64,000 nt of DNA from Streptomyces soli (GTDB lineage: Bacteria; Actinomycetota; Actinomycetes; Streptomycetales; Streptomycetaceae), in NCBI RefSeq assembly GCF_003999195.1, contig NZ_RJVR01000360.1:1-64000 (forward strand), read 5' to 3'. The position numbers and the translations under genes are program-made. Below, in pieces: positions 8,925 to 64,000 of this stretch (the first letter of the stretch is position 1; each line of letters starts with the position of its first letter). Under the pieces are notes generated by a model. The model did no database searches, had not been told where the DNA came from, and saw nothing but the letters and a program-made list of their open reading frames with translations.

Positions 8925-10355
8925 TTAGGCGGCCGGCAGGATCCACTGCTGGTTGGCGGCGCCGGAGCAGTCCCAGATCTGGAGGCGGGTGCCGTTGGCG
9001 GAGCTGGGGCCGGTGGCGTCGAGGCAGCGGCCGGACTGGGGGTTCGTGAGGCGGTTGTTGGCGCCGGCCAGCCATTGCTGGGAGCCGGTGCCGTTGCAGT
9101 CGTAGAGCTGCACCGTGGTGCCGTTGGCGGTGCCGGCGCTGGTGACGTCGAGGCACTTGCCGAGGGCCTTGAGGGTGCCGTCGGTGCCAACGGTCCATTG
9201 CTGGGCGCTGGTGCCGTTGCAGTCGTACAGCTGGATGGCGGTGCCGTTGGCGGTGCCGGCGGAGGCGACGTCGACGCACTTGCCGCCGTAGCCGGTGATC
9301 TTGCCGGTACGCGAGGTGCCGCCGCCGGTGGAGGTGCCGGTGATGGAGTTGAAGATGCTGGAGAACTGGTAGGCGCTCTGCGAGGTGCCGCTGCAGGTGC
9401 TGGAGAGGGTGCCGTTGGTGGAGCAGGCCTTGTCACGGCCGAGGGCCCAGAAGGCGAGCTCCTGGATGCCGTTGGTCTTCGCGAAGCTCTCGAGGGTCGA
9501 GGCGTTGCTCGTGGAGAAGACCTCGCTGGTGGTGTCGTTCACGCCGATCATGGGCGTGTTGCCCTCCATGGCCCACAGCTGGGCGGAGGTCTTGGTGGTC
9601 CAGATCTGGCCGAGCTGGGTGTGGAGCGCGGTGGCCGCGTTGATGGCCGCCTGGCCCATGTCCATGGCCGACCCGTAGTCCATCGTCATGAGGTTGACGA
9701 GGTTGACGGTCAGGCCGTTGCTCTTGGCGTTGTTGAGCAGATTCAGCGAGTTCTGCAGGAGGCCGGTGGGCATGACCGGCAGGGTGTACTGCACGTCCAG
9801 CTTCTTGCCGGCGGCGGCGTACTCCGACTGGAGCTGGGCGAGGGCCTGGTTGCGGCGGTCGTTGGCCGTGGTGTTGTCGAGCGCGCTGCCCTCGATGTCG
9901 AAGTCGACGCGGGTGAGGTTGAGGGTGTCGATGACCTTCTTGTACTGGGCCTTGAGGGTGGAGACCGAGGTGCAGGACAGACCGAGTTCGGTGCCGGCCG
10001 CGCCGCCGAAGGAGGCGATGACGTCGCCGCCGGAGGCCCGCAGGGAGTTGATGGCCGTCGTCCAGCTGCTGTCGGATATGGACACGTTCCCGTTGAAGGT
10101 GGCGTTACAGCCGCCGCCGTCGAGGATGAAGGCGAGCGTGAAGTACTTCAGGCCCGTGGCGGACTGGGCGCTGGCCATCGCCGAGGCCGAGTTCCAGGTC
10201 TCGACGTAGGGCGCGGCGTATTGGGCGGGGAAGCCTGGGCCGGGGTTGGCGGCCGCGCTCGCGGTCGTACTGGAACCGAGCAGCAGCCCGGCGGCCATCG
10301 CCGGAACGGTGATCGCGGCGGAGAGGGCTCTGAGCCAGGAACGGGATTTACGCAT
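8925..10355 (-). CDS. Secreted GH18 chitinase-like protein with C-terminal ricin-type lectin domain
   Basis: A 476-residue secreted protein. ATG 10355 follows AGGAG at 8 bases. Residues 1-36 are a signal peptide ending STTASA. A GH18 domain spans about 40-330, with a substrate-binding FGGAAG stretch near 124 and the catalytic segment RVDFDIEG near 152, where Glu is the acid. The usual first Asp of DxxDxDxE is Thr here, seen in a subset of actinobacterial GH18 proteins. After a Gly/Thr linker a ricin B-type trefoil (about 350-476) has three repeats, each with GKC/GRC and QQW motifs, for carbohydrate binding. It probably degrades chitin or related glycans. It lies 85 bases downstream of the alginate lyase gene on the same strand. 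Confidence 0.88.
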   Translation of the reverse strand: MRKSRSWLRALSAAITVPAMAAGLLLGSSTTASAAANPGPGFPAQYAAPYVETWNSASAMASAQSATGLKYFTLAFILDGGGCNATFNGNVSISDSSWTTAINSLRASGGDVIASFGGAAGTELGLSCTSVSTLKAQYKKVIDTLNLTRVDFDIEGSALDNTTANDRRNQALAQLQSEYAAAGKKLDVQYTLPVMPTGLLQNSLNLLNNAKSNGLTVNLVNLMTMDYGSAMDMGQAAINAATALHTQLGQIWTTKTSAQLWAMEGNTPMIGVNDTTSEVFSTSNASTLESFAKTNGIQELAFWALGRDKACSTNGTLSSTCSGTSQSAYQFSSIFNSITGTSTGGGTSRTGKITGYGGKCVDVASAGTANGTAIQLYDCNGTSAQQWTVGTDGTLKALGKCLDVTSAGTANGTTVQLYDCNGTGSQQWLAGANNRLTNPQSGRCLDATGPSSANGTRLQIWDCSGAANQQWILPAA

Positions 10356-49691: not shown

Positions 49692-50282
49692 TCAGTCGCG
49701 GGGGAAGTCGGCCGTTTCCAGGACGAGGTCGATGACCGTGCCGGTGAGGTCGATGGGTTCGCCGAACTTGATGGTGAGCTTGTTCCGGTATTCGTCGTCC
49801 TGCGGGAGGGTGAAGACGTGGCACAGGCCGGTGTAGGGGTCGGCGATCAGGTAGACGGGGACGCCGGCTGTTGCGTAGGCCGCCTTCTTCTTTCCGTAGT
49901 CGCTGTCGGCGGTTCCGCTGGAGATGACTTCGGTGACGAACTCGACGTCCTGGTACCGCCAGCGCCTGTGTGAGTCCAGTTGGGCGGTGTCCGAGAGCTT
50001 GACGACGTCGGGGGCGAAGCCGTTCTTGTGGCCGGGGAAGTCGATGCGTACGTCGGACTTCACCTTCACCTGCATGCCGAAGCGGTCTTCCAGGGCCCGC
50101 ACGATCCTCCGGATGATCTCCCAGTGGGCATCCCGCTGCGGCGACATGTGGACGGTCCCCTCGACGATCTCGACCTTGTAGCCCTCGGGGACGGGCATCC
50201 GCTCCAGCGCGTCGAACATCTCGTCCAGACTGAGTTCGCTGCTGTCGGCCATGTCGATCCTGTCGGTCAGTGCGACGGTCAT
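49692..50282 (-). CDS. Uma2-family (DUF820) putative restriction endonuclease-like protein
   Basis: A 196-residue protein of the PD-(D/E)xK Uma2 superfamily. Core residues: NGFAPDVVKL (Asp), VEFVTEVISSGTA (Glu) and YGKKKAAYA (Lys). After MTVALTDRID it has GYKVEIVEGTVHMSP at the start. The family is abundant in cyanobacteria and actinomycetes and is linked to transposons, but the role is unknown. The ATG 50282 start has GGGAGGAG before it. It is not next to a methylase. Confidence 0.83.
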   Translation of the reverse strand: MTVALTDRIDMADSSELSLDEMFDALERMPVPEGYKVEIVEGTVHMSPQRDAHWEIIRRIVRALEDRFGMQVKVKSDVRIDFPGHKNGFAPDVVKLSDTAQLDSHRRWRYQDVEFVTEVISSGTADSDYGKKKAAYATAGVPVYLIADPYTGLCHVFTLPQDDEYRNKLTIKFGEPIDLTGTVIDLVLETADFPRD

Positions 50283-50368
50283 CGTGGCGCTCCTCCCCGC
50301 TGCAGCATGTGCGCGCAGCCGCCCGGTTCAACGATACGTGCGGGCCCCGGGATACGCCGGGTGGAGAT

Positions 50369-51139
50369 CTACGCGTCCCGCTTCTTCAGCACCACGTATC
50401 CGCCGATCAGGGCCGCGGCCACCCACAGGAGCATGATGCCGAGTCCGGCCCAGGGGCCGTACGGGCGGTCGTCGTTGATGGAGACGACCTGCATGATCTT
50501 GGAGCCTGCCCGGTCGGGGAAGTAGCGGGCGACGTTCTTGGCACCGGGGACGGCGGCCAGGATCGGGGAGATGAGGAAGAAGAAGGGCATCAGGATGCCG
50601 AGGCCGAGCATGGGGCTGCGGAGCATCATGGCGATGCCCGCGGAGAAGAGCACGGTCAGGGTCATGTAGAGGCCGGCGCCGACGACGGCGCGGAGCACGC
50701 CGTGGTCGGTGATGGAGGTGCTGTGGTCGCCGAGGAGGGCCTGGCCGACGAAGAAGGAGAGGAAGGCGGTGGCCATGCCGACGACGAGGGCGAGGGCGCC
50801 GATGACGGCGACCTTGGAGGCGTAGAAGGTGCCGCGTTGGGGGACAGCGGCCAGCGAGGTGCGGATCATGCCGGTGCTGTACTCGCTGGAGACGACCAGG
50901 ACGCCGAAGACGATGAGGGCGAGCTGGCCTAGCAAGAGCCCTGAGAAGCTGGAGGAGGTGGGGTCGAAGCCGGCGCGGTCGCTCTCGCCGAAGTTGTCCC
51001 ACTGGGCGTTGGTGAGGAGGCAGAGGAGGCCACTGAGGATGACGGTGACCAGGAGGGCGGATCCCAGGGTCCATACGGTGGAGCGGACGGACCGGACCTT
51101 GGTCCATTCGGACTGGAGGACTGCGCTCGGTGCCGCCAT
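50369..51139 (-). CDS. ABC-2 type transporter permease (pair B)
   Basis: A 256-residue permease with six membrane helices, starting ATG 51139 (MAAPSAVLQSEWTKVRSVRS). It shares the SEWTK, TVWTLG, LLLGQLALIVFGVLVVSSE and STGMIRTSLAAVPQR stretches with pair A. It begins one base after the pair B ATPase stop. Substrate unknown. Confidence 0.88.
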   Translation of the reverse strand: MAAPSAVLQSEWTKVRSVRSTVWTLGSALLVTVILSGLLCLLTNAQWDNFGESDRAGFDPTSSSFSGLLLGQLALIVFGVLVVSSEYSTGMIRTSLAAVPQRGTFYASKVAVIGALALVVGMATAFLSFFVGQALLGDHSTSITDHGVLRAVVGAGLYMTLTVLFSAGIAMMLRSPMLGLGILMPFFFLISPILAAVPGAKNVARYFPDRAGSKIMQVVSINDDRPYGPWAGLGIMLLWVAAALIGGYVVLKKRDA

Positions 51140-51140
51140 G

Positions 51141-52151
51141 TCAGGACTGCCCCTTCTTCTGCTTCTGCTGCTGCCAGTTGGCGCCCCAGGCGGGCTGCTG
51201 CTCCGGTGCGGGCTGGTCTGACGGGGCCGGTACGCCCGATACGCCCGGTACGCCCGCGTGGTACTCGACGGACTCGGCGGTGAGGCGCATGAAGGCCTCC
51301 TCCAGGGAGGCCCGTTGGGGGCTCAGTTCGTGGAGTACGAGGTGATTCTGGGCGGCCAGTTCGCCGATCTTCGCCGGGTCGGCGTCCTGGATCTCGATGG
51401 AGCCGTCGCCGACCGTGACCGGGGTCAGACCGGCCACCGTGAGGGCGTCGCGCATCTGCTCGGGCTGCGGGGTGCGTACGCGGATGTACGAGCGCGAATT
51501 CTGCTCGATGAAATCGGCCATGGAGGTGTCGGCGAGGAGCCGGCCGCGGCCGATGACGACGAGGTGTTCGGCGGTGAGGGCCATCTCGCTCATCAGGTGG
51601 GAGGAGACGAAGACGGTGCGGCCCTGCGCGGCGAGGTCCTTCATGAGATTACGGATCCAGTGGATGCCCTCGGGGTCGAGTCCGTTGACCGGTTCGTCGA
51701 ACATCAGGATCTTGGGGTCGCCGAGGAGGGCGCCGGCGATGCCGAGGCGCTGGCCCATGCCGAGGGAGAAGCCCTTGCTGCGCTGCTTCGCGACTGCCGT
51801 GAGGCCGACGGTCTCCAGGACCTCGTCGACGCGGCGGCGGGGGATGCGGTTGGCCTGGGCGAGGCAGAGGAGGTGGTTGTACGCGCTGCGGCCGCCGTGC
51901 ATGGCCTTGGCGTCGAGGAGGGCGCCGATGTAGGTGAAGGGATCGCTGAGCTGGGCGTAGTGCTTGCCGTCGATGGTGACGTCGCCCGAGGTCGGATTGT
52001 CCAGGCCGAGGATCATCCGCATCGTCGTTGATTTTCCCGCGCCGTTCGGGCCCAGAAAGCCCGTCACAACGCCCGGTCGTACGGAGAAGGTGAGGTGGTC
52101 GACGGCCGTCTTGCCGCCGTACCGCTTTGTCAGCGCCTGCAGCTCGATCAT
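51141..52151 (-). CDS. ABC transporter ATP-binding protein (pair B)
   Basis: A 336-residue ATPase, clearly paralogous to the pair A ATPase. Walker [19 protein letters not shown], signature FSLGMGQRLGIAGALL, Walker B KILMFDEPVNGLD, H-loop SSHLMSEM, and a Gln/Pro-rich tail. ATG 52151 (MIELQALTKRYGGK) is the family start; the longer frame to 52187 is unlikely. Confidence 0.92.
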   Translation of the reverse strand: MIELQALTKRYGGKTAVDHLTFSVRPGVVTGFLGPNGAGKSTTMRMILGLDNPTSGDVTIDGKHYAQLSDPFTYIGALLDAKAMHGGRSAYNHLLCLAQANRIPRRRVDEVLETVGLTAVAKQRSKGFSLGMGQRLGIAGALLGDPKILMFDEPVNGLDPEGIHWIRNLMKDLAAQGRTVFVSSHLMSEMALTAEHLVVIGRGRLLADTSMADFIEQNSRSYIRVRTPQPEQMRDALTVAGLTPVTVGDGSIEIQDADPAKIGELAAQNHLVLHELSPQRASLEEAFMRLTAESVEYHAGVPGVSGVPAPSDQPAPEQQPAWGANWQQQKQKKGQS

Positions 52152-52236
52152 GCGGTCCACGCTATTCGGCTGACGGCGCCGATGCACCCGGAAGGCGCGG
52201 TTCCGGACAGGGTTCAGGCCACGTTTCCGAACATGC

Positions 52237-52277
52237 CGGAGCCCCCGCCCCAGGAGGGGGGATGGGCGGGGGCTCCG
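52237..52277 (-). terminator. Terminator of filP
   Basis: CGGAGCCCCCGCCC and GGGCGGGGGCTCCG form a perfect 14-bp stem with a 13-base loop, 40 bases beyond the filP stop codon on the minus strand. Confidence 0.8.
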
Positions 52278-52317
52278 TGGCGTACGTATCCGTCAGACGT
52301 GAGGCGTCGGCGTGGCG

Positions 52318-53247
52318 TCAGCGCTGGGCCGGGACGCCGCGGGTGACGGGCTCGTCGTCCGGGGCGCCGGCGGCGGCGACGGCCGCACCGGTCAGGGTGG
52401 CCAGCATCTCGCGGACGTTGGTCAGCTGGGCGTTGATGCTGTCGCGGCGGTTGGTCAGAGCCGCGAGCTCACGCTCGGATTCGCTGCGGATGCGGTCGGC
52501 CTTGGCGTTCGCGTCGGCGACGATGTCCTCGGCCTGGCGCTGGGCGGTCTCGACCGTCTGGCGGGCGCGGCGCTCGGCGTCGGTGCGGAGCTTCTCGGCC
52601 TCGAGGCGGAGCTGCTCGGCGCGGTGCTCGATCTCGGCGAGGCGCTTCTCGGCCTTGGCCTGACGGGACGCCAGGTCACGCTCGGACTGCTCGCGGCGCT
52701 TGGCGAGGTTGGTCTCGAAGTCCGCGGCGGCCTGGGCGGCCTTGGCGCGGGTCTCCTCGAAGAGGGCGTCGGCCTCCTCGCGCTTGGCGGCGGCGTCCTT
52801 GGTGGCGTCGGCGCGCAGCTGCGAGGCTTCGCCCTTGGCCTTCTCGACGATCCGCGCGCCCTCGTCCTCGGCCTTGCTCTTGCGCTCGGCGGCGAAGGAC
52901 TCGGCGTCGTTACGGACCTGGTTGGCGGCGGACTCGGCAAGCTCGCGGTGCTGCTCGGCAGCGCGGCGGGCCTCCTCGCGCAGGTCCTTCGCCTCCTCCT
53001 CGGCGAGGCGGAGGATCTTCTCGACCCGGGCACCGAGACCGGCGTACGACGGCTCGGCGTCGTTGACCTGGGCCTGCGCGTTCTGGGTCTCGAGGTGCAG
53101 CTCCTCGATGCGCTTCTCCAGCGCGTTGATACGGGCCAGCGCGCTGTCTCGGTCGGCGACCAGTTTCGTGATGCGGTCGTCCACCTGGCCGCGGTCGTAC
53201 CCGCGCCGTACGAGCTCGAACCCGAAGGGGGAGGAAGTGTCGCTCAT
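52318..53247 (-). CDS. filP: FilP, intermediate-filament-like coiled-coil protein
   Basis: A 309-residue protein. After a short DivIVA-like N-terminus (PFGFELVRRGYDRGQVDDRI) nearly the whole chain is a charged alanine-rich coiled coil (about 40-280) with Glu/Arg/Lys heptads and hendecads, ending in a short flexible tail. FilP forms filaments that stiffen hyphae and localise near tips with DivIVA and Scy. ATG 53247 is in the expected place. It lies 104 bases downstream of scy on the same strand and ends at a strong terminator. Confidence 0.93.
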   Translation of the reverse strand: MSDTSSPFGFELVRRGYDRGQVDDRITKLVADRDSALARINALEKRIEELHLETQNAQAQVNDAEPSYAGLGARVEKILRLAEEEAKDLREEARRAAEQHRELAESAANQVRNDAESFAAERKSKAEDEGARIVEKAKGEASQLRADATKDAAAKREEADALFEETRAKAAQAAADFETNLAKRREQSERDLASRQAKAEKRLAEIEHRAEQLRLEAEKLRTDAERRARQTVETAQRQAEDIVADANAKADRIRSESERELAALTNRRDSINAQLTNVREMLATLTGAAVAAAGAPDDEPVTRGVPAQR

Positions 53248-53351
53248 GGGGTTCCTGTCAATTCAGACCGGTGGTGGGGTGTTAGGGGAATCCTAGGGGC
53301 CGCAAGGGCGCGGCATCGAGTCAATGTCCATTAGGTATGCAGAATGTGCGC

Positions 53352-56300
53352 TCAATCGAGTGGAGCCTCGTCGGACCGCTTGCCACTCGATCGGGTGCCT
53401 CCGGCGCCCGCTCCCGCCGTGACGGCGCTCTTGCCGTCGCCGGGTGCCTGGAATGATTCCAGCGCCTCCAGCACGTCCTGTACGCGGGAGATCTCGGCGT
53501 TGATGTCCTGCCGGCGGCGTACCAGCACCTCGAGCTCGCGCTTGCCCTCCGTTACGATGCGCTCCGCCTCGGCCCGCGCCTCCGCCTTGATCCGGTCCGC
53601 TTCGCGCGCGGTGTCGGACTCCTTCTGCTCGGCACCCTTGAGCAGCTCCTCGGCCTTCTTCACCGCGGCGATCCGCACCTTGCTCGCCTCGGCGCTCGCG
53701 TTGGACCGGGTCGCCTCGGCCTCGGCCTCGGCGTCGGCGAGTTGCTTGCGGGCCTTCGCCTCGGATTCGGTCAGCTGCTCGGTCGCGGCGGCTACCAGCT
53801 TGTCGACCCGTTCGCCGGCCGACTTCATCTGCGCGGCGGCCTCCTTGCGGGCCCGCTCGTGCAGTTCCTCGACCTCGGCCTCGACGCGGGCGCGCAGCTC
53901 CTCCGTACGCTCCCTTATGGCCGTGGAGTCCTGTCGGGCCTCGTGCAGCAGGGTGTCGGCGTCCGTACGGGCCCGCTCGACCATCCCGTTGCCCTCGTTG
54001 GTGGCCTCGTTGACGAGGCGTTCGGCCTCCTTGCGGGCCGCGCCGACCATGGTGTCGGCCTGCTTCTCGGCCTCGGTGGCGATCCGGACGGCCTCGTCCT
54101 GGGCCTTGGAGATGAGCTCGTCGGCCTGCTCGGCAGCCTCGCTGCGGCGCCTGTTGGCGTCCTCGCGGGCCTGGTCGCGCATGGCCTGGGACTCCTCGCG
54201 GGCCGCCTCGGCGTCGCGCTCGGCGCTGTCCAGGGACTCCTTGGCCAGGATGCCGAGGCGCTCGGCTTCCGTACGGGCCTTGGAGATGAGCTGGTCGGCC
54301 TGGAGCGCGGCCTCGGTGCGGCGGCGGTTGGATTCCTCGCGGGCCTCGTCGAGGTGGCGCTGCGCCTCCTGGCGGGCGCCGGCGAGGGCTTCCTCGGCCG
54401 CGCGGCGGCGCTCCTCGGCGTCGCGCTCTGCGGTGTCCAGAGCGTCCTTGGCGAGGATGCCCAGGCGTTCCGCGTCGCGCTGGGCCTTGGCGACGATCTC
54501 GTCGGCCTGGTTGGCGGCCTCGCCGAGGGCGCGGTCGGTTTCCGCGCGGGTCTCGGCGCGCAGCCGGTCGGACTCCTCGATCGCGTCGGTGACGGTGCGG
54601 TCGGCCAGGGCGCGGGCGGCCTCGGCTTCCTCGCCGGCCTCGCGGCGGATGCGGGCGGCGTCCTCGGAGGCGCGCTCGCGCTCGGCGTTGGCGTCGGCGT
54701 GCAGCCGGTCGGCGGCCTCCTGGGCCTCGGCGCGCATGCGGTCTGCGGCGTGCTCGGCGGCCGAGCGCAGCCCGGCGATCTCCTGATCGGCCTGCTCGTG
54801 CAGCCCGGCGACGGAGTCTCGTACCTGCTGGGCGGTCTGCTCGGCGGCGCCCATGAGTTCGGCGGAGTGCCGCTCGGCGTCGGCGAGCAGCCGCTCGGCC
54901 TCGGCCTGCGCCTCCTCGACCCGCTTGCGGGCGGAGGCGAGCAGTTCCTCGCTCTCGCGGCGGGCCTGGGCGCGTTCATGGTCGGCTTCGCCCCGGGCGG
55001 ACCCGAGCAGTTCCTCGGCCTCGCGGCGGCGGCGCAGCGCCTCCTCCTGGGCGGCGGCCAGTGCCTCGGCGGCCTCGGCCCCGATGCGCTCGGCGGCCGT
55101 GGCGGCCTCGGCGCGCAGCCGGTCGGCGGTCTCCTGGGCCTCGGTACGCAGCTGCTCGGCCTCGGTGGCGGCGTCGCTGGTGAGCCGGACGGCCTGCTGC
55201 TCGGCCTCGGCGCGGGTCTGCGAGGCGTCGGCGGCGGCCTCGTCCCGTAGCCGTACGGTGTCCTGTTCGGCCTGCTCCTGGAGCGTACGGACCCGCTCGG
55301 CGGCCTCGGCGCGGACCTGGGCGGCCTCCTCGGCGGCCTCGGCGCGCAGCCGTTCGGCCTCGGCGCGGGCGTCGCGCAGGGCCTCCTCGGCGGCGGCGAT
55401 GCGCAATTCGGCCTCGCTGCGCTGGCGGTTGAGGTCGGCGGCGGCTTCGTCTCGCAGCCGCTGGGCGGCCTCGACGGCCTCCTCGCGCAGCTGCAGCCCG
55501 GCGAACTCGGCGTCCTCCTTGACCTGGACGGCCTGCTGCTCGGCCTCGGTGCGCAGCTGCTCGGCCTCGGTACGGGCCCGCTCCAGCGCCTCGTCGGCCT
55601 GCCGGCGCAAGCCCGCGGCCCGCTCGATGGCCTCGGTTCGGACCCGCTCGGCCTCGGTGGTGGCGCTCTGGCGCTGCTCGTCGGCGTCGGCCTTGGCCTT
55701 GGTCAGCAGCGCCTCGGCGGTGCTGGCCGCCTCCTCGATCTGCTGGACGGCCTCGCGGCGGGCCTCGCCCCGGATCCGCTCGCCCTCGGCGACGGCGTCG
55801 GCGCGCAGCTGCTCGGCCTCGCCACGCAGCCGGCGTGCCTCCTCCTGGAGCTCGACGGTCTTGGCGCGGTACTCCTTGGTGTCGTCCTGCGCCGCCCCGC
55901 GCAGCTGCTCGGCGGACTCCTCCGCCTGGCCGCGCAGCCGCTCCGCCTCGGCCTCGGCCTCACGCTTGATCCGCTCGGCCTCCTCGCTCGCCGCGCGGGT
56001 GGTGGACTTGGCGTCCTCGGTGGCCTTGTTCAGGACCTCCTCGGCCTGCCGGGCGGCCTTGGCCAGCGCGGCCGCGGCGTCCTCGGCGAAGGCGGCCTTG
56101 GCGGTCTCCGCGGCCTCGGCGAGCATCCGCTCGGCCTTGGCCTTGGCGTCGGCCTTGGTCTGCTCGGCCTCGGTCTTGGCGGCCTCGGCCTCCTTGGTGG
56201 CCTCGGTGACCAGGCGGGCGATCTCGGCGCGGGCGGTGCGGGTGCGCTGCTCGTTGTCGGCGTCGACGGTGGCCAGCCGCTTGGCCGCGTTCGCGGCGGC

Positions 56301-57146
56301 CTCCTCGCGCAGCCGGTCGGCCTCGGCCCGGGCCTCGCGCAGCGCCTCCTCGGCCTCGCGCTTCTGCTCCTCGGCGGTCCGGGTCAGCTCGGCGGCCTGC
56401 TGGCGGGCCTGGTCGGACTCGGTGAGGGTGCTGGTGCGCAGCTGCTCGGCCTGGCTGGTGGCCTCCTGTGCCTGAGTACCGGCCGCGTTCAGCAGGCGCT
56501 CGGCGTCGGTGCGTGCTCGGCGCAGCAGCTGCTCGGCCTCGGCACGGGCGGCGGTGGTCTCCGACTCCAAGCGCTCGCGGGCGCCCTCCGCGATCCGCTG
56601 CGCCTCCTGGCGGGCGGCGGCCAGCGCTGCCTCGGCCCCGGCGCGGGACTCGTCCATGAGCCGGCGGGCCTGCGACTCGCTGCGGGCGCGGATCTGCTCG
56701 GCCCAGGCCACGTTCTCGTTGACGTGCTGCTCTACGCTGGCCCGGCGCTCGGCCAGCTCCTCGTCAAGGCGGCGGCGCCGGGCGACGGCCTCGGCGTGCC
56801 ACTGCGCCTCCATCTGGGACTGGCGCTCGGCCTGCTCCTGGAGGAGGCGCTGGGTGGCGGCACGGGCCTCGCGCAGCTCGCGCTCGGCGTCGGCGCGCAG
56901 CTGGTTGGCCTGGATCTCGGCGTTGCGGAGCAGCTGGTCGGCCTGGTGGCCGAGGTTGTCGTAGGCAGGACGGGACGCGAGATTACGGCGCGCCTCGTGC
57001 AGCTTGGCGCGCAGCACCTCGACCTGGTAGCCGAGGTCGTCGGCGTGTTGCAGCACCTTGTCCCGCTCGGTCCGCAGCCGTTCCATCTCGGCCTCGAACT
57101 GCGAGAGGTGGTCGCCCTCAACCTCGTAGCGGTCGTTGCCCCGCAC
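53352..57146 (-). CDS. scy: Scy, giant coiled-coil polar-growth scaffold protein
   Basis: About 1264 residues, almost entirely Ala/Glu/Arg-rich coiled coil; S. coelicolor Scy is slightly longer. It organises tip growth with DivIVA and FilP. A unit of about 50-65 residues is repeated near the C-terminal third, for example AERLGILAKDALDTAERDAE and AERLGILAKESLDSAERDAE, in line with the hendecad-type repeat known for Scy. The start is taken as GTG 57146 (VRGNDRYEVEG aligned with the known MRGYER start, GGATGGG just before it). The frame is open to a TTG at 57188 without a ribosome binding site. The matching open frames on the other strand are composition artefacts. Confidence 0.93.
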   Translation of the reverse strand: MRGNDRYEVEGDHLSQFEAEMERLRTERDKVLQHADDLGYQVEVLRAKLHEARRNLASRPAYDNLGHQADQLLRNAEIQANQLRADAERELREARAATQRLLQEQAERQSQMEAQWHAEAVARRRRLDEELAERRASVEQHVNENVAWAEQIRARSESQARRLMDESRAGAEAALAAARQEAQRIAEGARERLESETTAARAEAEQLLRRARTDAERLLNAAGTQAQEATSQAEQLRTSTLTESDQARQQAAELTRTAEEQKREAEEALREARAEADRLREEAAANAAKRLATVDADNEQRTRTARAEIARLVTEATKEAEAAKTEAEQTKADAKAKAERMLAEAAETAKAAFAEDAAAALAKAARQAEEVLNKATEDAKSTTRAASEEAERIKREAEAEAERLRGQAEESAEQLRGAAQDDTKEYRAKTVELQEEARRLRGEAEQLRADAVAEGERIRGEARREAVQQIEEAASTAEALLTKAKADADEQRQSATTEAERVRTEAIERAAGLRRQADEALERARTEAEQLRTEAEQQAVQVKEDAEFAGLQLREEAVEAAQRLRDEAAADLNRQRSEAELRIAAAEEALRDARAEAERLRAEAAEEAAQVRAEAAERVRTLQEQAEQDTVRLRDEAAADASQTRAEAEQQAVRLTSDAATEAEQLRTEAQETADRLRAEAATAAERIGAEAAEALAAAQEEALRRRREAEELLGSARGEADHERAQARRESEELLASARKRVEEAQAEAERLLADAERHSAELMGAAEQTAQQVRDSVAGLHEQADQEIAGLRSAAEHAADRMRAEAQEAADRLHADANAERERASEDAARIRREAGEEAEAARALADRTVTDAIEESDRLRAETRAETDRALGEAANQADEIVAKAQRDAERLGILAKDALDTAERDAEERRRAAEEALAGARQEAQRHLDEAREESNRRRTEAALQADQLISKARTEAERLGILAKESLDSAERDAEAAREESQAMRDQAREDANRRRSEAAEQADELISKAQDEAVRIATEAEKQADTMVGAARKEAERLVNEATNEGNGMVERARTDADTLLHEARQDSTAIRERTEELRARVEAEVEELHERARKEAAAQMKSAGERVDKLVAAATEQLTESEAKARKQLADAEAEAEATRSNASAEASKVRIAAVKKAEELLKGAEQKESDTAREADRIKAEARAEAERIVTEGKRELEVLVRRRQDINAEISRVQDVLEALESFQAPGDGKSAVTAGAGAGGTRSSGKRSDEAPLD

Positions 57147-57328
57147 TCCGCGGTCCCATCCGTCCGTCCTGGTGTACCCACCCGCCAACCGAGTGAGATT
57201 CCCCGGGGCCCTGTTTCGCGCAGGGCCTTACGGAGAATTGTGACTGATCCACGCCGAAGCGCGGGCCGGTACCCCACCCAGCCCACCCCGGTCGGCTCGG
57301 TCACTCTACCGGGGGGAAAGGGCCTGGG

Positions 57329-57757
57329 TCAGTGGTCCTTGTCGGACGTGACGAGCTCTGTGAGTACCCCATGACAGTCCTTGGGGTGCAGGAATGTGAT
57401 TCGGGACCCCATCGAACCGATACGCGGCTCCTCATAAAGGACGCGTACGCCCTTGCTTTTGATGTCGGCGGAGTCCGCGTCCACGTCCGCCGTGCCGAAG
57501 GCGATGTGGTGGACGCCCTCACCGTTCTTGGCCAGCCACTTCGCGACGGTGGAGTCCTCGCGGGTCGGCTCCAGCAGCTGAAGGTAGGAGGCCCCGCCGT
57601 CGTCGGTGTTGTTGATCTTGAGCATGGCCTCGCGAACACCCTGTTCCTCGTTGACCTCGGAGTGGAACACCTCGAAGCCGTACGTGGCACGGTAGAACTC
57701 GACGGTCTTGTCCAGGTCGAAACAGGCGATACCGATGTGGTCGATTCGAGTCAGCAT
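57329..57757 (-). CDS. mce: Methylmalonyl-CoA epimerase
   Basis: A 142-residue vicinal-oxygen-chelate enzyme that interconverts (S)- and (R)-methylmalonyl-CoA. Metal ligands are in LTRIDHIGIAC (His7), LQLLEP (Gln/Glu), GVHHIAFG (His) and the late GVLTELV (Glu). ATG 57757 is used; the frame to 57808 lacks support. It works with methylmalonyl-CoA mutase and MeaB (next gene group), feeding propionyl-CoA into the TCA cycle or supplying polyketide extender units. Confidence 0.94.
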   Translation of the reverse strand: MLTRIDHIGIACFDLDKTVEFYRATYGFEVFHSEVNEEQGVREAMLKINNTDDGGASYLQLLEPTREDSTVAKWLAKNGEGVHHIAFGTADVDADSADIKSKGVRVLYEEPRIGSMGSRITFLHPKDCHGVLTELVTSDKDH

Positions 57758-57897
57758 GGGTCCAGTGCACCCCTCACACGCATGGTCACGCAACGTGCGC
57801 GCGATCACACCGTCCGCCGCGTGACCGTGGCGCTACCGCTCAGTACATTGACGGAAACCCTCGTTAACATCTTCCCTCCGTGCAAAGGGGCCGCGTC

Positions 57898-59097
57898 ATG
57901 ACCAGCCAGGAAGCACGAACGTCCGTGATCGTCGCAGGCGCCCGCACCCCCATGGGGCGCCTGCTGGGGTCGCTCAAGGGCTTCTCCGGAGCCGACCTGG
58001 GCGGCTTCGCCATCAAGGCCGCCCTCGACCGGGCGGGCATCGGCGGCGACCAGGTGCAGTACGTGATCATGGGCCAGGTGCTGCAGGCCGGGGCCGGCCA
58101 GATCCCCGCCCGCCAGGCCGCCGTCAAGGCCGGGATCCCGATGAGCGTCCCGGCGCTCACCATCAACAAGGTGTGTCTGTCCGGGCTCGACGCGATCGCG
58201 CTTGCCGACCAACTGATCCGCGCGGGTGAGTTCGACGTGGTGGTGGCCGGCGGCCAGGAGTCCATGACCAACGCCCCCCACCTGCTCCCCAAGTCCCGCG
58301 AGGGCTACAAGTACGGCGCGGTCGAGGTCCTTGACGCGATGGCGTACGACGGGCTGACCGACGCCTTCGAGAACATCGCGATGGGCGAGTCCACGGAGAA
58401 GCACAACAGCCGGCTCGGCATCGACCGCGCCCCGCAGGACGAGTTCGCGGCCCTGTCGCACCAGCGGGCCGCCGCCGCCCAGAAGAACGGGCTCTTCGAG
58501 GCCGAGATCACGCCGGTCGAGATCCCGCAGCGCAAGGGCGAGCCGGTCGTCTTCAGCAAGGACGAGGGCATCCGCGCCGAGACGACCGCCGAGTCCCTGG
58601 GCAAGCTGCGGCCCGCCTTCACCAAGGACGGCACCATCACGGCCGGTACGTCCTCGCAGATCTCCGACGGTGCGGCGGCGGTGGTCGTGATGAGCAAGGC
58701 CCTCGCGCAGGAGTGGGGCCTGGAGTGGATCGCCGAGATCGGCGCACACGGCAATGTCGCGGGCCCGGACAACTCGCTGCAGTCGCAGCCGTCCAACGCG
58801 ATCGCGCACGCCCTGAAGAAGGAGGGCCTGGGGGTCGAAGATCTTGACCTGATCGAGATCAACGAGGCCTTCGCGGCCGTCGCCGTCCAGTCGATGAAGG
58901 ATCTCGGGGTGACACCTGAAAAGGTGAACGTGAACGGCGGCGCCATCGCCCTCGGTCACCCGATCGGGATGTCCGGCGCGCGGCTCGTCCTTCACCTCGC
59001 CCTTGAGCTGAAGCGGCGCGGCGGTGGAGTGGGCGCGGCCGCCTTGTGCGGCGGCGGTGGGCAGGGCGATGCTCTGATCATCCGCGTGGACAAGTAA
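57898..59097 (+). CDS. Acetyl-CoA C-acetyltransferase (thiolase)
   Basis: A 399-residue thiolase condensing or cleaving acetoacetyl-CoA. Nucleophile Cys93 is in [38 protein letters not shown] (His) and the final [10 protein letters not shown] (Cys) complete the active site. ATG 57898 after AAGGGG, 18 bases inside a longer frame. It is divergent from mce and followed 41 bases later by meaB. Confidence 0.94.
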
Positions 59098-59138
59098 TCC
59101 GCTGATCCGATCGTAGAAATCGTAGAAACGGAGCCGCA

Positions 59139-60095
59139 ATGGTGGACGTCCCCACCCTGGTCGAGCAGGCACGGCAGGGCCACCCCCGCGCCGTCGCCCG
59201 CCTGATCTCCCTCGTGGAGGGGGCGTCCCCGCAGCTCCGTGACGTCATGGCCGCGCTCGCGCCGCTCACCGGCGGCGCGTACGTGGTCGGGCTCACCGGC
59301 TCCCCGGGCGTCGGCAAGTCCACATCCACGTCGGCCCTGGTCACCGCCTACCGCCGGGCCGGAAAGCGCGTCGGCGTACTGGCGGTGGACCCGTCCTCGC
59401 CGTTCAGTGGGGGCGCGCTGCTGGGCGACCGGGTCCGGATGTCCGACCACGCGTCCGACCCCGGCGTCTACATCCGCTCCATGGCCACCCGCGGCCACCT
59501 CGGCGGCCTCGCCTGGGCGGCCCCGCAGGCCATTCGCGTCCTCGACGCGGCCGGCTGCGAGGTGATCCTCGTGGAGACCGTCGGCGTCGGCCAGTCCGAG
59601 GTCGAGATCGCCGCCCAGGCCGACACCTCGGTCGTGCTGCTGGCTCCCGGCATGGGCGACGGCATCCAGGCGGCCAAGGCCGGCATCCTCGAGATCGGCG
59701 ACGTCTACGTCGTCAACAAGGCGGACCGCGACGGCGCCGACGCCACCGCCCGCGAGCTCAACCACATGCTCGGCCTCGGCGAATCCCGCGCTCCCGGCGA
59801 CTGGCGTCCGCCCATCGTCAAAACCGTCGCCGCCCGTGGTGAAGGCATCGACGAAGTCGTCGCCTCGCTCGAAAAGCACCGCGCCTGGATGGAGGAGCAC
59901 GGCGTCCTCGCCGACCGTCGTCGTCGCCGCGCCGCCCTCGAGGTCGAGCACATCGCCGTCACGGCCCTGCGCGAACGCATCGGCGACCTCCACGGCGACC
60001 GCCGCCTCGACTCCCTCGCCGACCGCATCGTCAACGGCGAGCTCGACCCGTACACGGCGGCGGACGAGTTGGTGGCGGGCCTGACGGAGGGCTGA
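59139..60095 (+). CDS. meaB: Methylmalonyl-CoA mutase-associated GTPase MeaB
   Basis: A 318-residue G3E GTPase that protects methylmalonyl-CoA mutase and gates adenosylcobalamin loading. P-loop LTGSPGVGKSTSTS (about 51-64), SGGALLGDRVRM, switch DVILVETVGVGQSE (VILVETVGVGQSE) and NKADRDGA for guanine specificity. ATG 59139 follows GGAG. It is likely co-transcribed with the thiolase. The adenosyltransferase at 38.1 kb would deliver its cofactor. Confidence 0.95.
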   Translation: MVDVPTLVEQARQGHPRAVARLISLVEGASPQLRDVMAALAPLTGGAYVVGLTGSPGVGKSTSTSALVTAYRRAGKRVGVLAVDPSSPFSGGALLGDRVRMSDHASDPGVYIRSMATRGHLGGLAWAAPQAIRVLDAAGCEVILVETVGVGQSEVEIAAQADTSVVLLAPGMGDGIQAAKAGILEIGDVYVVNKADRDGADATARELNHMLGLGESRAPGDWRPPIVKTVAARGEGIDEVVASLEKHRAWMEEHGVLADRRRRRAALEVEHIAVTALRERIGDLHGDRRLDSLADRIVNGELDPYTAADELVAGLTEG

Positions 60096-60126
60096 CCTCC
60101 CTGGCGTGGTCCGCCCTACGCCCGCC

Positions 60127-60633
60127 CTATTCGCGGCCGCGGACCTCGCGGAGGTGCTCGGCCACCGGCGTCAGGGAGCGCTGCAGGGCTGTCAGGTCCT
60201 CATCCGCCAGGAGGTCGATGAAGTGCTCGCGCACCGCGGCGACGTGGTGAGGGGCGACCTTGCGCATGGTCTCCCAGCCGTCGTCGGTGAGGACGGCGAA
60301 GAGGCCGCGGCGGTCGGATTCGCAGTTCTCGCGGCGGACCAGGCCAGCGGTCTCCATACGGGAGATCTGGTGGGAGAGGCGGGACTTGGACTGGAGGGTC
60401 GCGCGGGCGAGATCGGACATGCGGAGGCGGCGGTCCGGGGCTTCGGAGAGGTTGACCAGGATTTCGTAGTCGTTGTAGGTCAGGCCGAAGGGCTGGAGAT
60501 CGCGTTCGAGCTGGTGGGTCAGGAGTTTGCTGACCTCCAGGTGGGTGCGCCAGGCACGCTGTTGTGCGGCGGTGAGCCAAACGTCGGGGCCATCGCTGTT
60601 GCCGGGCTTCTTGGTCTCCGTCTCCGTCTCCAT
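60127..60633 (-). CDS. MarR-family transcriptional regulator
   Basis: A 168-residue winged-helix regulator with a charged start (METETETKKPG) and an N-terminal helix rich in dimer contacts. The recognition part is ATLQSKSRLSHQISRMETAG (about 85-104), with the wing RRENCESDRRGLFAVLTDDG. A single Cys in ESDRR-adjacent ENCES could sense oxidation but is weak evidence. It lies next to the AIM24 cluster and has an AT-rich operator-like site before its start. Confidence 0.88.
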   Translation of the reverse strand: METETETKKPGNSDGPDVWLTAAQQRAWRTHLEVSKLLTHQLERDLQPFGLTYNDYEILVNLSEAPDRRLRMSDLARATLQSKSRLSHQISRMETAGLVRRENCESDRRGLFAVLTDDGWETMRKVAPHHVAAVREHFIDLLADEDLTALQRSLTPVAEHLREVRGRE

Positions 60634-60637
60634 GTTG

Positions 60638-60666
60638 TGAGTATACCTAGGAAGTTGAAAACTAGA
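60638..60666 (-). promoter_or_regulatory. AT-rich dyad, possible MarR autoregulatory operator
   Basis: The bases before the MarR ATG read CTAGTTTTCAACTTCCTAGG on the minus strand, an imperfect dyad with inner AGTT-GAA-AACT symmetry and very low GC for this genome. It would include the promoter of the MarR gene. Confidence 0.4.
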
Positions 60667-60698
60667 TTACTTGGGGTCGCTTTTCCGTGTCCGCGCGG

Positions 60699-61487
60699 TC
60701 ACAGACCGAAGCGGCGCTGCAGATCCCCCAGCTGGCCGGGCATGCGCGGCACGCCCTGCTGCTGTCCGCCGTGGCCTGCGCCCGGGACGCCGGGCTCGTG
60801 GGGGACGGCGCCGGTGGCCTGCTCGGGCATCAGGACTTCGCTGGACTGGAGGAGGACCTGCCCGGCGCCGACGAATTCAAACTGGTGTTCCTCGCCGGAG
60901 GTGCCGCCGATGCCGGTGAGCGCCCGGACGCCGCCCAGAACTCCGCGCAGGTAACCGTGGTCGTAGTGGTGGCAGGGAGACGGGCAGTCGGCCCAGCCGA
61001 CCAGCGCCTGCGGGTCGACGCGGATCGGAGGCTCGACGAAGTGCACGGCGCCATTTGAGGCGGCGACGAACTTGCCGGTGCCGATCAGGGTCAGGAAGCC
61101 CGGAATGATCGACTGCTTGAGCGAGAGCCCGGGCTGGAAGGCCAGCAGGTTGCCGGAGCGGATCGTCAGGTTGCCGTTCTCGAGGTCGTAGGAGTTGACG
61201 TCGAAGGCACGGTCGGCGAGCAGCAGCTTGCCCTGGCCCTCGGCGACGATCCAGTCGGAGGCATGCAGTGGGGAGTGGAAGTTGGCGCGGACGAGGCCGT
61301 CGAGGGGGCCGTGGCCGATGCCGTTGAAGGTGATCTGCCCGTAGTAGGCGATCATCTTGCCCTTCTGCAGGAACCACTGGCCCTTGAGGTCCACGCAGAA
61401 GGCGTACGGATTGACGTTGTCGTCTACCGGGAGCGTGTAGGGGTCGTGGACGACGGGCCCTCCCGGGCCGGGGTACTGGGAACTCAT
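60699..61487 (-). CDS. AIM24-family protein (long form)
   Basis: A 262-residue protein with the AIM24/TerD-like double beta-sandwich. Family text is WFLQKGKMIAYYGQITFNGI, GQGKLLLADRAFDVNSYDL, NLLAFQPGLSL and a C-terminal beta-barrel part EEHQFEFVGAGQVLLQSSE. It has a longer Pro/Gly/Gln-rich tail (about 225-262) absent from the other two copies, and a start extended by 12 residues. The function of AIM24 proteins is unknown; some bind membranes. ATG 61487 with GGAGAAGG upstream. Confidence 0.85.
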   Translation of the reverse strand: MSSQYPGPGGPVVHDPYTLPVDDNVNPYAFCVDLKGQWFLQKGKMIAYYGQITFNGIGHGPLDGLVRANFHSPLHASDWIVAEGQGKLLLADRAFDVNSYDLENGNLTIRSGNLLAFQPGLSLKQSIIPGFLTLIGTGKFVAASNGAVHFVEPPIRVDPQALVGWADCPSPCHHYDHGYLRGVLGGVRALTGIGGTSGEEHQFEFVGAGQVLLQSSEVLMPEQATGAVPHEPGVPGAGHGGQQQGVPRMPGQLGDLQRRFGL

Positions 61488-61587
61488 CGGCCTTCTCCTC
61501 GCCGCAGTGCCGTGCCCGGCCGCTCGGCCGGTGTGTGGTGCGCCCGGCGGTGGCCGGTTCGTCCTCGTCGGGTCAGCGAGCGCAGCG

Positions 61588-62238
61588 TCACAGCTTCTCC
61601 TCCGACGCCTGTACGTACACCGTGCCCTGCCCCGACAGCTCCAGCTGGAAGGCCTCGCCGGAGCCGCGCCCGACCATGTCGCGCCAGCCCAGCGCGGTGG
61701 AGAGCTTGTTGCGTACGTCGCCGCGATGGGCGACGTACGCCTGCGGGTCGACGTGGACCGGCCGCTGCGGACTGATCGGCAGCTCGATGACGCCGCCGTG
61801 GGCCATGACGGCGACGGCCCCCTGCCCCTGCAGGGTCGTGGTGAACAGGCCCTGGCCCGTGACCTGGCCGCGGACGATGCCCATCACGCCGCCCTGGGAG
61901 CCCATGAACATCGTGCTCTGCCGCAGTGAGCCCTCGAAGGCCAGCAGGCGGTCGGCCTCGACGTAGAGGGTGTCGCCGGTCAGGTCGATGGTGTGGACGT
62001 GGTGGCCGCCGTGGCCGAACATCACCGAGCCGCGCCCCTCGACCGTCATCAGGGGGGTGGCCTCGTTGGCGACCCGCCGCCCGATCATGGACGCGAAGCC
62101 GCCCTGGCCACCCTGGATGTTCGGGGTGAAGGTGACGTCGCCGCGGTAGGCGAGCATGGCGCCGCGCTGGCTGAAGAGCCGCTGCCCCGGCAGGACCTGG
62201 GCCTCGACCATCTTGGAGTTGATCCGGGTGAAGGCCAT
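61588..62238 (-). CDS. AIM24-family protein (copy 2)
   Basis: A 216-residue AIM24 protein. Text: FSQRGAMLAYRGDVTFTP, GQGLFTTTLQGQGAVAVM, VHVDPQAYVAHRGDVRNKLS and GEAFQLELSGQGTVYVQASE. It starts 2 bases after copy 3 stops, and is 100 bases before copy 1, so the three are one operon with the DUF2127 gene. Confidence 0.9.
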   Translation of the reverse strand: MAFTRINSKMVEAQVLPGQRLFSQRGAMLAYRGDVTFTPNIQGGQGGFASMIGRRVANEATPLMTVEGRGSVMFGHGGHHVHTIDLTGDTLYVEADRLLAFEGSLRQSTMFMGSQGGVMGIVRGQVTGQGLFTTTLQGQGAVAVMAHGGVIELPISPQRPVHVDPQAYVAHRGDVRNKLSTALGWRDMVGRGSGEAFQLELSGQGTVYVQASEEKL

Positions 62239-62240
62239 GG

Positions 62241-62879
62241 TCAGAACTGCCCCCCGATCGTGTTGCGCTCGCTGGGCTGGACGTAGACCAGGCCCTCGCC
62301 CTCGAAGCGGATCTGGAAGGACTCGCCGCCGCTCTCGCCGATCATGGAGCGCCAGCTGATGCCGGTCTGGAAGTTCTGCCGGAGGTTGCCGGTGTGGGCC
62401 ACGTACGCGCCCGGGTCGACCTGCAGCGGGGTCCCGGAGGTGACGCGCAGCACGATCGCCGGGCCGTCGGAGGTGATGGCGGCCTGGCCGACGCCCTCGA
62501 CGGTGGTGGTGAACAGCCCGTTGCCCTGGGAGGCGCCGCGCAGACCGGTGAAGGTGGTGCCGGTGCGGAGGGCGGCCTCGGTGGCGAGGAGGTTGCTGGC
62601 CTCGACGTAGAGCTTCTCGCCTTGCAGGCGGACGAGATTGATCTCGCTCGCGCGGTCGGCGAAGTAGCAGGTGCCGTGCCCCTTCACCTCCATGACCTCC
62701 ATCGACTCGCCGGTGAGCCGGCGGGTGACCATGCCACGGATGCCCTCGCCGCCGCCGGACATCTTCTTGAACGCCATCTGGCCGTCGTACGCGACCATCG
62801 CGCCGTTCTTCGCCTTCACGGCATCGCCGGTCATGTCCACGGCGAGCACTTTGCTGCCCTGCAGTCGGAATTGCGCCAC
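62241..62879 (-). CDS. AIM24-family protein (copy 3)
   Basis: A 212-residue AIM24 protein with the same core as copy 2 (AKNGAMVAYDGQMAFKKM, GLFTTTVEGVGQAAITSDG, VDPGAYVAHTGNLRQNFQ, GESFQIRFEGEGLVYVQPSE). It begins 3 bases after the DUF2127 stop. The two short copies differ throughout, so they are old duplicates. Confidence 0.9.
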   Translation of the reverse strand: MAQFRLQGSKVLAVDMTGDAVKAKNGAMVAYDGQMAFKKMSGGGEGIRGMVTRRLTGESMEVMEVKGHGTCYFADRASEINLVRLQGEKLYVEASNLLATEAALRTGTTFTGLRGASQGNGLFTTTVEGVGQAAITSDGPAIVLRVTSGTPLQVDPGAYVAHTGNLRQNFQTGISWRSMIGESGGESFQIRFEGEGLVYVQPSERNTIGGQF

Positions 62880-62882
62880 GGG

Positions 62883-63680
62883 TCAGACCGTATCCGTCGT
62901 CGTGCCGCTCGTCACCGGGTTGCGCTCGCCCGCCGACTCCTCGACCTCCAGCAGCGACGCGCTGCGGCGCTCCGCCTCGAAGGCCTCGACGCCGCCACGC
63001 AGCCCGAACAGCCGCTTGGAGAGCAGGATGTAGAGGACGGCGAGAATGTTGAGGACCAGCGTGGCGATCTTGATCCAGCTGGTCTTCTCCGTCAGCTCGT
63101 AGATCTCCAGCGGCAGGAAGGCGGCCGTGGCGACGACGGTCAGATACTCCGCCCAGCGCTTGGTCATCCACAGGCCGACGCCCTCGATGATCTCGATCAG
63201 CGCGTACGCGAGGAGGGCCACGGCGACGATCAACAGCGTCGAGTGCTTGTACTCGAAGGTCTTGCGGATGGTGTCGACGACGGGGGAGTGGTCGATGTCG
63301 TAGTGGAAGTGCTGGGCGATCGGCCGGAAGACGGTGAGGTTGTTCTCGAAGAGGCGGTGGACCGCGTCCTGCGAGTTGCTGAACTTCCACACCGCCCAGG
63401 CGGCGAGGACGATGAACAGCCCGCGCAGGATCCGCTCCACGGCGAGGAAGCGCAGGATGAACAGGTCCCGCAGCGCCCGTCCGCGCGGCACCTCGGGCGC
63501 CCGGTCCGCCGGCCCCGAGCCGTGCGGGGCGCCCAGCGCGAAGTCGCCGCAGCGCAGGCAGCGCCAGGCGTCGCCGAGCGCGGTGGCGGCGTGCAGCCGC
63601 TCGCGCAGATGCTCCTCCTCCGGGGCGTAGGTGACGTGCCCCTTGCGGGAGCAGGTACGCCGGTCCCAGTCGAACTTCAT
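62883..63680 (-). CDS. DUF2127 family membrane protein
   Basis: A 265-residue protein. The first 60 residues are soluble and carry cysteines (RTCSRKGHV, WRCLRCGDFALG) that may bind a metal. Four membrane helices follow (about 82-100, 148-167, 176-195 and 206-226), and the end is charged. It is the first gene of the DUF2127-AIM24 operon. No function is known for DUF2127. ATG 63680. Confidence 0.86.
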   Translation of the reverse strand: MKFDWDRRTCSRKGHVTYAPEEEHLRERLHAATALGDAWRCLRCGDFALGAPHGSGPADRAPEVPRGRALRDLFILRFLAVERILRGLFIVLAAWAVWKFSNSQDAVHRLFENNLTVFRPIAQHFHYDIDHSPVVDTIRKTFEYKHSTLLIVAVALLAYALIEIIEGVGLWMTKRWAEYLTVVATAAFLPLEIYELTEKTSWIKIATLVLNILAVLYILLSKRLFGLRGGVEAFEAERRSASLLEVEESAGERNPVTSGTTTDTV

Positions 63681-63850
63681 GGCTCAATCCCCGTTGGCTG
63701 GTCGCGAGTGTCACAGGTGTCGTGGAGGGGGACGCTACCGTGCGACCCGCGGTTGCCGACCCCCGGCGAGGGTCGGCGAACGGACGGGCGATAATGGGAG
63801 CTGCTTGTGAACGTACGCACAAGCGCTGCCCCAACCCCCGAAGGTGATCC

Positions 63851-64000
63851 GTGGACATCAAAACAGCCTCAGCGCTGCAAAGGCTCCGACTGGTCTCCGC
63901 CCCCGAGGCGGTGTCCTACTTCCTGCTGCTGCCGATCGGGGTGGTCCTCAAGAACGCGACCTCCTTCAACCCGGTGCCCGTGCTGGGCTGGGTACACGGC
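63851..64000 (+). CDS. DUF3817 family membrane protein (5' part, runs off the window)
   Basis: The GTG at 63851 opens a frame of 50 residues to the window end: VDIKTASALQRLRLVSAPEA, a hydrophobic helix VSYFLLLPIGVVLK, NATSFNPVPVLGWVHG. The AEAVSFLLLL-plus-GWVHG pattern is the DUF3817 signature. It is divergent from the DUF2127-AIM24 operon with a 170-base gap holding a dyad at 63755-63777. Confidence 0.75.
   Translation, partial: MDIKTASALQRLRLVSAPEAVSYFLLLPIGVVLKNATSFNPVPVLGWVHG

Follow-up and report, generated by a model that had tools for sequence, protein, structure and literature searches.

A fixed trio of AIM24 paralogues, and not a DUF2127 operon, is the conserved unit beside an absC-type gene in Streptomyces soli, with a link to Ter stress genes

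Which genes form the conserved unit near the end of a 64,000-nucleotide stretch of Streptomyces soli DNA (contig NZ_RJVR01000360.1; hereafter the window, meaning this whole stretch), and what system do they serve? At this locus, a gene for a DUF2127 membrane protein is followed by three genes for AIM24 proteins, here called AIM24a, AIM24b and AIM24c, and by a MarR regulator gene. An initial annotation of the sequence had read the first four as one operon whose products might form a hetero-oligomer at the membrane, and knew of no function assigned to the set. We found that the conserved unit is the AIM24a-b-c trio and not the DUF2127 operon, and a link of the trio to the Ter (tellurite/stress) genes is well supported.

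The a-b-c order was present in all 24 other genomes of the genus, one of which ends at a contig end within c, and the MarR gene followed the trio in 23 of them, the exception being a contig end. Comparison material is cited by number (f for families, G for genomes, L for loci of the comparison sets), and some named loci come from the same organisms as genomes in other sets (e.g., G012 is L129 and G222 is L185). Patterns from AIM24c retrieved 558 relatives, of which the best 80 make up the named loci, so that these lean to close relatives; among the 80, the order a-b-c-MarR was kept in 79, and the 80th (L204) stops at a contig end. Outside Streptomycetaceae, a-b-c stood in this order on one strand at 19 of 19 loci from seven families and two classes, with intergenic gaps of −4 to +33 bases and a second c at one locus. 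This gene order is far beyond chance.

Among 296 genomes of the phylum searched with an AIM24c profile, four from outside Streptomycetaceae, two of them from f21, a family of another class, had strong orthologues (E 6e-83 or better); 47 more genomes had weaker matches only (E 1e-5 to 1e-20), which were taken as other AIM24 proteins. All eight Streptomyces of this sample carried AIM24c. A wider profile, applied to 394 genomes of the class, returned 56 at E 1e-30 or better, namely the source genome, 38 of the 39 Streptomyces, and 17 genomes from f6, f8, f10, f86, f87 and f96. On trees of 82 and 67 proteins, AIM24a, b and c each formed a single group across families, with support in the Shimodaira–Hasegawa-like approximate likelihood ratio test (SH-aLRT) of 74 and 81 for a, 89 and 92 for b, and 100 and 100 for c.

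Some loci vary in detail. A tandem AIM24c duplicate was seen in one genome of another class (L112:8676-10036), a 1.4-kb insert separates AIM24b from AIM24c in one congeneric genome (L062:8040-9415), and a DUF389 protein gene lies directly downstream of the trio at L109:9987-10952. In L131, L178 and other Streptomyces loci, a TACCTTCG-type box stands directly before the GTG start of AIM24a, which suggests a leaderless transcript.

DUF2127 behaved differently from the trio. It lies upstream of the trio in 23 of the 24 congeneric genomes, at −1 to +6 bases from AIM24a in 22 of these loci and +20 in one. Four of the 80 named loci have less than 1 kb upstream of AIM24a and were left out; in the remaining 76, DUF2127 was found upstream in only 4, and it was beside none of the 19 trios outside Streptomycetaceae. 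In Actinacidiphila glaucinigra the gene has been deleted: between the leader and an intact trio, only the last few DUF2127 codons are left. One of the eight Streptomyces in the phylum sample has DUF2127, on a different contig from AIM24c. In the same sample, 17 of the 19 genomes matching DUF2127 (three of these matches score below the Pfam cut-off) were without the trio, and the two proteins co-occurred in 2 genomes (19 and 13 carriers in 296; P 0.2), indicating no association. The initial annotation had named scattered AIM24 genes without DUF2127 as evidence against its system. Trios without DUF2127 were indeed found (at 72 of 76 named loci and at all 19 loci outside Streptomycetaceae), whereas the AIM24 genes were not scattered. 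The idea of a dedicated DUF2127-AIM24 system thus did not hold, because the trio is commonly without DUF2127, while the three paralogues proved to be inherited together as a fixed set, a pattern in keeping with a hetero-oligomer.

The neighbourhoods outside Streptomycetaceae pointed to the Ter genes. Ten of the 19 trios have genes for TerD, TerC, StiP, PRTase or C-C lyase at a distance of up to about 9 kb, and these were Pfam-verified at L109 and L111. TerD itself was near 9 of the 19, where its density predicts about 0.66 (P about 4e-9, a rough value, as first-look TerD counts were used and the 19.5 kb span was set by hand). No Ter genes were seen at 19 control loci; this control is weak, and the density estimate is the better one because the control loci were partly from TerD-less genomes and some were short.

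Co-occurrence across genomes agreed with the neighbourhoods. At thresholds of E ≤ 1e-30 for AIM24c and E ≤ 1e-10 for TerD, TerD was present in 103 of the 394 genomes of the class sample, and all 56 genomes with AIM24c were among them; AIM24c was found in none of the 291 TerD-less genomes. In the phylum sample, TerD was present in 13 of 13 AIM24c genomes and in 1 further genome (G318) without AIM24c. Fisher tests gave 1e-39 for the class and 1e-21 for the phylum, both ignoring relatedness. The pattern was seen in seven families of the class (f1, f6, f8, f10, f86, f87 and f96) and in f21. Within genus g236, the two trio genomes have TerD matches at E below 1e-79 (7–8 among the matches listed). 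In each of the six other genomes listed, AIM24c is missing and a single, weaker TerD match (E 6e-38 to 8e-34) is present. According to PMC5822837, Anantharaman, Iyer and Aravind (2012) had already proposed the location of AIM24 genes beside TerD and a possible interaction. The first view that no function had been assigned is therefore only partly right: it is corrected by this printed proposal and by the MarR gene, which corresponds to AbsC, a published regulator.

A second AIM24 triplet was also found, consisting of a TerD-AIM24x fusion, AIM24y and AIM24z. In the source genome (9.4 Mb, 412 contigs), seven AIM24 matches were detected, which are the window trio, this second trio on contig C164 (L009, positions 35-2422), where the fusion stops at the contig end, and one single gene; a full copy of the triplet is at L075:4672-7792. 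The fusion comes first in x-y-z at 3 of 3 complete Streptomycetaceae loci examined and in the four f87 genomes examined (L236-L239; L237 and L239 were checked with Pfam, and in L236 and L238 tblastn places both parts in one frame). In the only Streptomyces of the 39 without AIM24c, G543, the AIM24 genes are three in number and belong to the x-y-z type, so that the a-b-c set was all or none in the one loss seen. Three f6 genomes, picked because their TerD and AIM24 matches shared one frame, carry single TerD-AIM24 fusions (L241:2675-4060, L242:3186-4766 and L243:3133-4836), and these fusions form their own group on the tree. Each of x, y and z is a single group across families; a and b group together (96) apart from x/y/z, and the branch leading to AIM24c is long. 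In a free quick tree, the f6 fusions were placed among x, y and z, and a topology constrained to keep x/y/z in a single clade could not be rejected (p 0.08). It is likely that the a-b-c and x-y-z triplications were independent.

The initial picture of one DUF2127 protein, two short AIM24 proteins and a long one with a Pro/Gly/Gln tail was confirmed. The PF01987 scores were 128.2 bits for AIM24a, 128.5 for AIM24b and 45.3 for AIM24c, all passing the gathering cut-off of 25.7, and DUF2127 reached 146.6 bits with PF09900 (cut-off 24.3). All three AIM24 proteins failed the TIGR00266 cut-off of 96.6 bits (AIM24a 48.6, AIM24b 42.5, no match for AIM24c). BLASTP identity was 39% between a and b, 26% between a and c, and 29% between b and c. 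The AlphaFold2 model of AIM24b (predicted local distance difference test score (pLDDT) 74, predicted template modelling score 0.73) resembled 1yox at Z 20.5 (root-mean-square deviation 2.1 over 159 residues) and 1pg6 at Z 19.0 (3.6 over 196 residues), and this model indicates that AIM24b has the 1yox/1pg6 fold. The protein of 1yox, PA3696, is a trimer.

The C-terminal peptide of AIM24c follows a variable Pro/Gly linker and is missing in at least 16 of the 24 congeneric genomes. The Cys and His residues of its loop GWADCPSPCHHYDH look attractive for metal within Streptomycetaceae only. AIM24c was considered as a Cys/His metal protein and set aside: beyond the family, Ser frequently replaces the second Cys, the His positions are variable, and f21 lacks Cys; metal binding is left as a weak possibility.

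We consider it somewhat probable that AIM24a, b and c are three subunits of one beta-sandwich assembly serving a TerD-based (Ter) metal or envelope stress system, because the set is fixed, it occurs in TerD genomes only in our samples, its neighbours are frequently Ter genes, and a paralogous triplet is fused to TerD. The three proteins would build a heteromer, probably a trimer, and the assembly may sit at the cytoplasmic face of the membrane, by analogy with yeast Aim24, which is an inner-membrane protein. AIM24c could dock partners through its Pro/Gly linker and C-terminal peptide, and the assembly would scaffold TerD proteins under metal or envelope stress. The trio appears to have left the ter clusters in Streptomycetaceae and relocated next to absC.

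Several points weigh against this explanation. The genome counts are not phylogenetically independent, and 39 of the 56 AIM24c genomes are Streptomycetaceae. Because AIM24c is missing from 47 of the 103 genomes with TerD in the class sample, the relation between the two is one-way. None of the 17 TerD matches in the source genome is on the window contig (C263), and no Ter gene was found within 8–9 kb of 9 of the 19 outside trios (at L220, 3 kb on one side). The AIM24c model was unusable (pLDDT 33.5), and the membrane location, docking role and stress phenotype of the trio are what we infer. A wider version of the explanation strikes us as doubtful: AIM24 proteins would be obligate three-subunit rings in Ter systems, with triplets arising at least twice (a-b-c and the TerD-fused x-y-z), one or two distinct heterotrimers per genome would organise TerD proteins at the membrane, and the a-b-c ring of Streptomycetaceae would have come under the absC zinc/antibiotic locus. 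No paper on this locus or on an AIM24 triplet was recognised in the open-licence library searched, which lacks most subscription papers. The strict TerD dependence, the fixed triplets and the TerD-AIM24 fusions turn a beta-sandwich of unknown function into a testable claim of AIM24 triplets as a Ter scaffold.

The MarR protein of the window had 3zmd as its best PDB match (E 1.2e-73), followed by a paralogue, 3zpl (E 5.3e-37). PMC3737563 gives 3ZMD as AbsC, that is SCO5405, and PMC3737563 and PMC9739823 report AbsC as a regulator in zinc-dependent antibiotic production. The window MarR is the AbsC orthologue, because the 3zmd match is far ahead of 3zpl and the neighbour order is alike in the named loci. 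Within the stretches fetched around the 19 outside trios, no AbsC-like MarR gene reached 38% identity. A core containing TTTCAAC lies upstream of the absC orthologue in 13 of 14 loci inspected, and the published SCO3205 consensus matches 60648-60666 with 2 mismatches and is not enriched window-wide. Downstream of the trio, absC has a conserved promoter-like region to itself. The MarR gene and its dyad had been correctly recognised in the initial annotation, but the dyad belongs to the promoter region of the MarR gene itself and not to that of the AIM24 operon. AbsC operators at the AIM24 promoter were rejected as a candidate, as TTNAANNNTCAA matches were fewer than chance in the window (44 vs. 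63 expected); one of the 44 is at the DUF2127 start (63676-63687). The absC neighbourhood suggests a zinc connection of the trio, and it makes a link between envelope or metal stress and antibiotic control in Streptomyces testable.

DUF2127 may belong to this regulator more than to the trio. It has three hydrophobic segments and a single match in the whole genome, and it matched no solved structure at E 1. Its Cys-rich segment, which had been noted from the first, was borne out as C10, H15, C41 and C44 (C..GH..CLRC), conserved in the window protein, the 23 aligned congeneric proteins and 10 of 10 other DUF2127 proteins inspected. In the related family f3, where 10 of 19 DUF2127 matches were covered, DUF2127 is the immediate neighbour of an AbsC-like MarR gene at 5 of 10 distinct loci, and the trio is absent. 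Those five copies are 56–62% identical to the window DUF2127; the other five (44–48%) are without such a MarR neighbour. In the simplest reading, DUF2127 and absC would be an old pair, the trio would have been inserted between them, and Streptomyces would later have lost DUF2127. DUF2127 would then be a lineage-specific partner of the absC locus and not a trio subunit. In the f3 genome G028, a single diverged AIM24 gene was observed about 8 kb from DUF2127, and a DUF3817-like gene, named by eye, adjoins DUF2127 in the f3 loci L066 and L069.

These data also bear on other explanations. The locus could be an AbsC-controlled zinc-homeostasis locus, in which the ribbon of DUF2127 would sense zinc or bind it at the membrane, with the AIM24 proteins acting as effectors controlled by AbsC. 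The reported role of AbsC (PMC3737563 and PMC9739823), the adjoining of DUF2127 and an AbsC-like MarR gene in half of the f3 loci without any trio, and the Cys/His motifs in DUF2127 and AIM24c are in its favour. We regard it as unlikely, since the more distant five f3 copies have no such MarR neighbour, 0 of 19 outside trios have an AbsC-like one (matches below 38% identity were not counted), a promoter-like region of absC itself follows the trio, the window has 44 operator-like matches where 63 are expected (the one at the DUF2127 start included), and the Cys and His residues of AIM24c are not conserved outside Streptomycetaceae.

Quite improbable, in our view, is a role of the AIM24 proteins as organisers of the respiratory membrane and its lipids, like the one proposed for yeast Aim24, with the Ter link being secondary. 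PMC3975624 describes yeast Aim24 as acting at the mitochondrial inner membrane and affecting MICOS, cardiolipin composition and respiratory complexes, and the trio of L215:8386-14637 lies between menaquinone-methyltransferase-like and nuoA/nuoB-like genes (named by eye). However, only one such neighbourhood was noticed, and strict co-occurrence with TerD would not be expected. The dedicated membrane hetero-complex of DUF2127 and three AIM24 proteins, as first envisaged, draws on the tight DUF2127-AIM24a spacing in 22 of the 23 congeneric loci (+20 bases in one). As a general system it is largely refuted, and we give it very little credence, considering the absence of DUF2127 beside the trio in the named and outside loci, its deletion in A. 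glaucinigra, and the lack of co-occurrence with AIM24c (2 shared genomes). An AIM24 assembly serving the Ter system is thus the explanation that we prefer.

The features of the locus are collected in Table 1. The open-frame coordinates bear out the reported four same-strand genes separated by 3, 2 and 100 bases, and 65 bases follow between AIM24c and the MarR gene, all on the minus strand; AIM24b starts with the ATG at 62238, within a longer open frame.

Table 1. Coordinates of the genes and sequence features at the AIM24 locus of the window
Feature	Coordinates	Strand	Evidence or remark
DUF2127 membrane protein, 265 aa	62883..63680	−	PF09900 E 7.4e-43; optional neighbour of the trio
AIM24a, 212 aa	62241..62879	−	PF01987 E 4.6e-37; single group on trees
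AIM24b, 216 aa	61588..62238	−	PF01987 E 3.6e-37; AlphaFold2 model matches 1yox and 1pg6
AIM24c, 262 aa, diverged, with Pro/Gly/Gln linker and C-terminal peptide	60699..61487	−	PF01987 E 1e-11
MarR regulator, AbsC orthologue, downstream of AIM24c	60127..60633	−	Best PDB match 3zmd
Ribbon-like segment of DUF2127, C10..GH15..C41-LRC44 (putative zinc site)	63549..63653	−	Alignment of congeneric and 10 further proteins
AIM24c-specific loop GWADCPSPCHHYDH at residues 164-177 (weak candidate for a metal or ligand site)	60957..60998	−	Identical in 77/79 named loci
AIM24c C-terminal peptide MPGQLGDLQRRFGL (candidate docking peptide)	60702..60743	−	LPGQLGDLQRRFGL in 74/79 named loci
Promoter/operator-like dyad of the MarR (absC) gene	60634..60670 (about)	−	Recurring core in orthologues; published consensus with 2 mismatches

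Other parts of the window were also inspected. No Rfam match at gathering score was found for structured RNA in 50000-64000, and no PADLOC anti-phage model matched DUF2127 or the three AIM24 proteins at E 0.01. A 1278-aa coiled-coil-like protein is encoded at 53352-57188 and is presumably the Streptomyces cytoskeletal protein Scy. Two DUF3817 genes lie near the locus (window 63852 onward; L011:5852-6199 and 9567-9905); one is divergent from DUF2127, and the other adjoins a second MarR-like gene (L011:9021-9533, by eye).

Among known systems, the Ter (TerD/TerC/StiP/PRTase) systems resemble the present locus in having AIM24 beside TerD, and orthologous trios lie in such clusters; here, on the other hand, a fixed a-b-c paralogue set is found, which in Streptomycetaceae is detached from the ter genes and lies beside absC. 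AIM24b shares the fold of the TIGR00266-type proteins PA3696 (1yox) and SpyM3_0169 (1pg6), but the window proteins are below the TIGR00266 cut-off and their genes are three paralogues. The PF01987 model matched by the window proteins carries the name of yeast Aim24, which is MICOS-associated, whereas that protein belongs to a eukaryotic inner membrane and is not known to have a TerD partner. AbsC (SCO5405) has its orthologue in the window MarR, with the same neighbours in the named Streptomyces loci, yet it is a regulator and no part of the conserved trio outside Streptomycetaceae.

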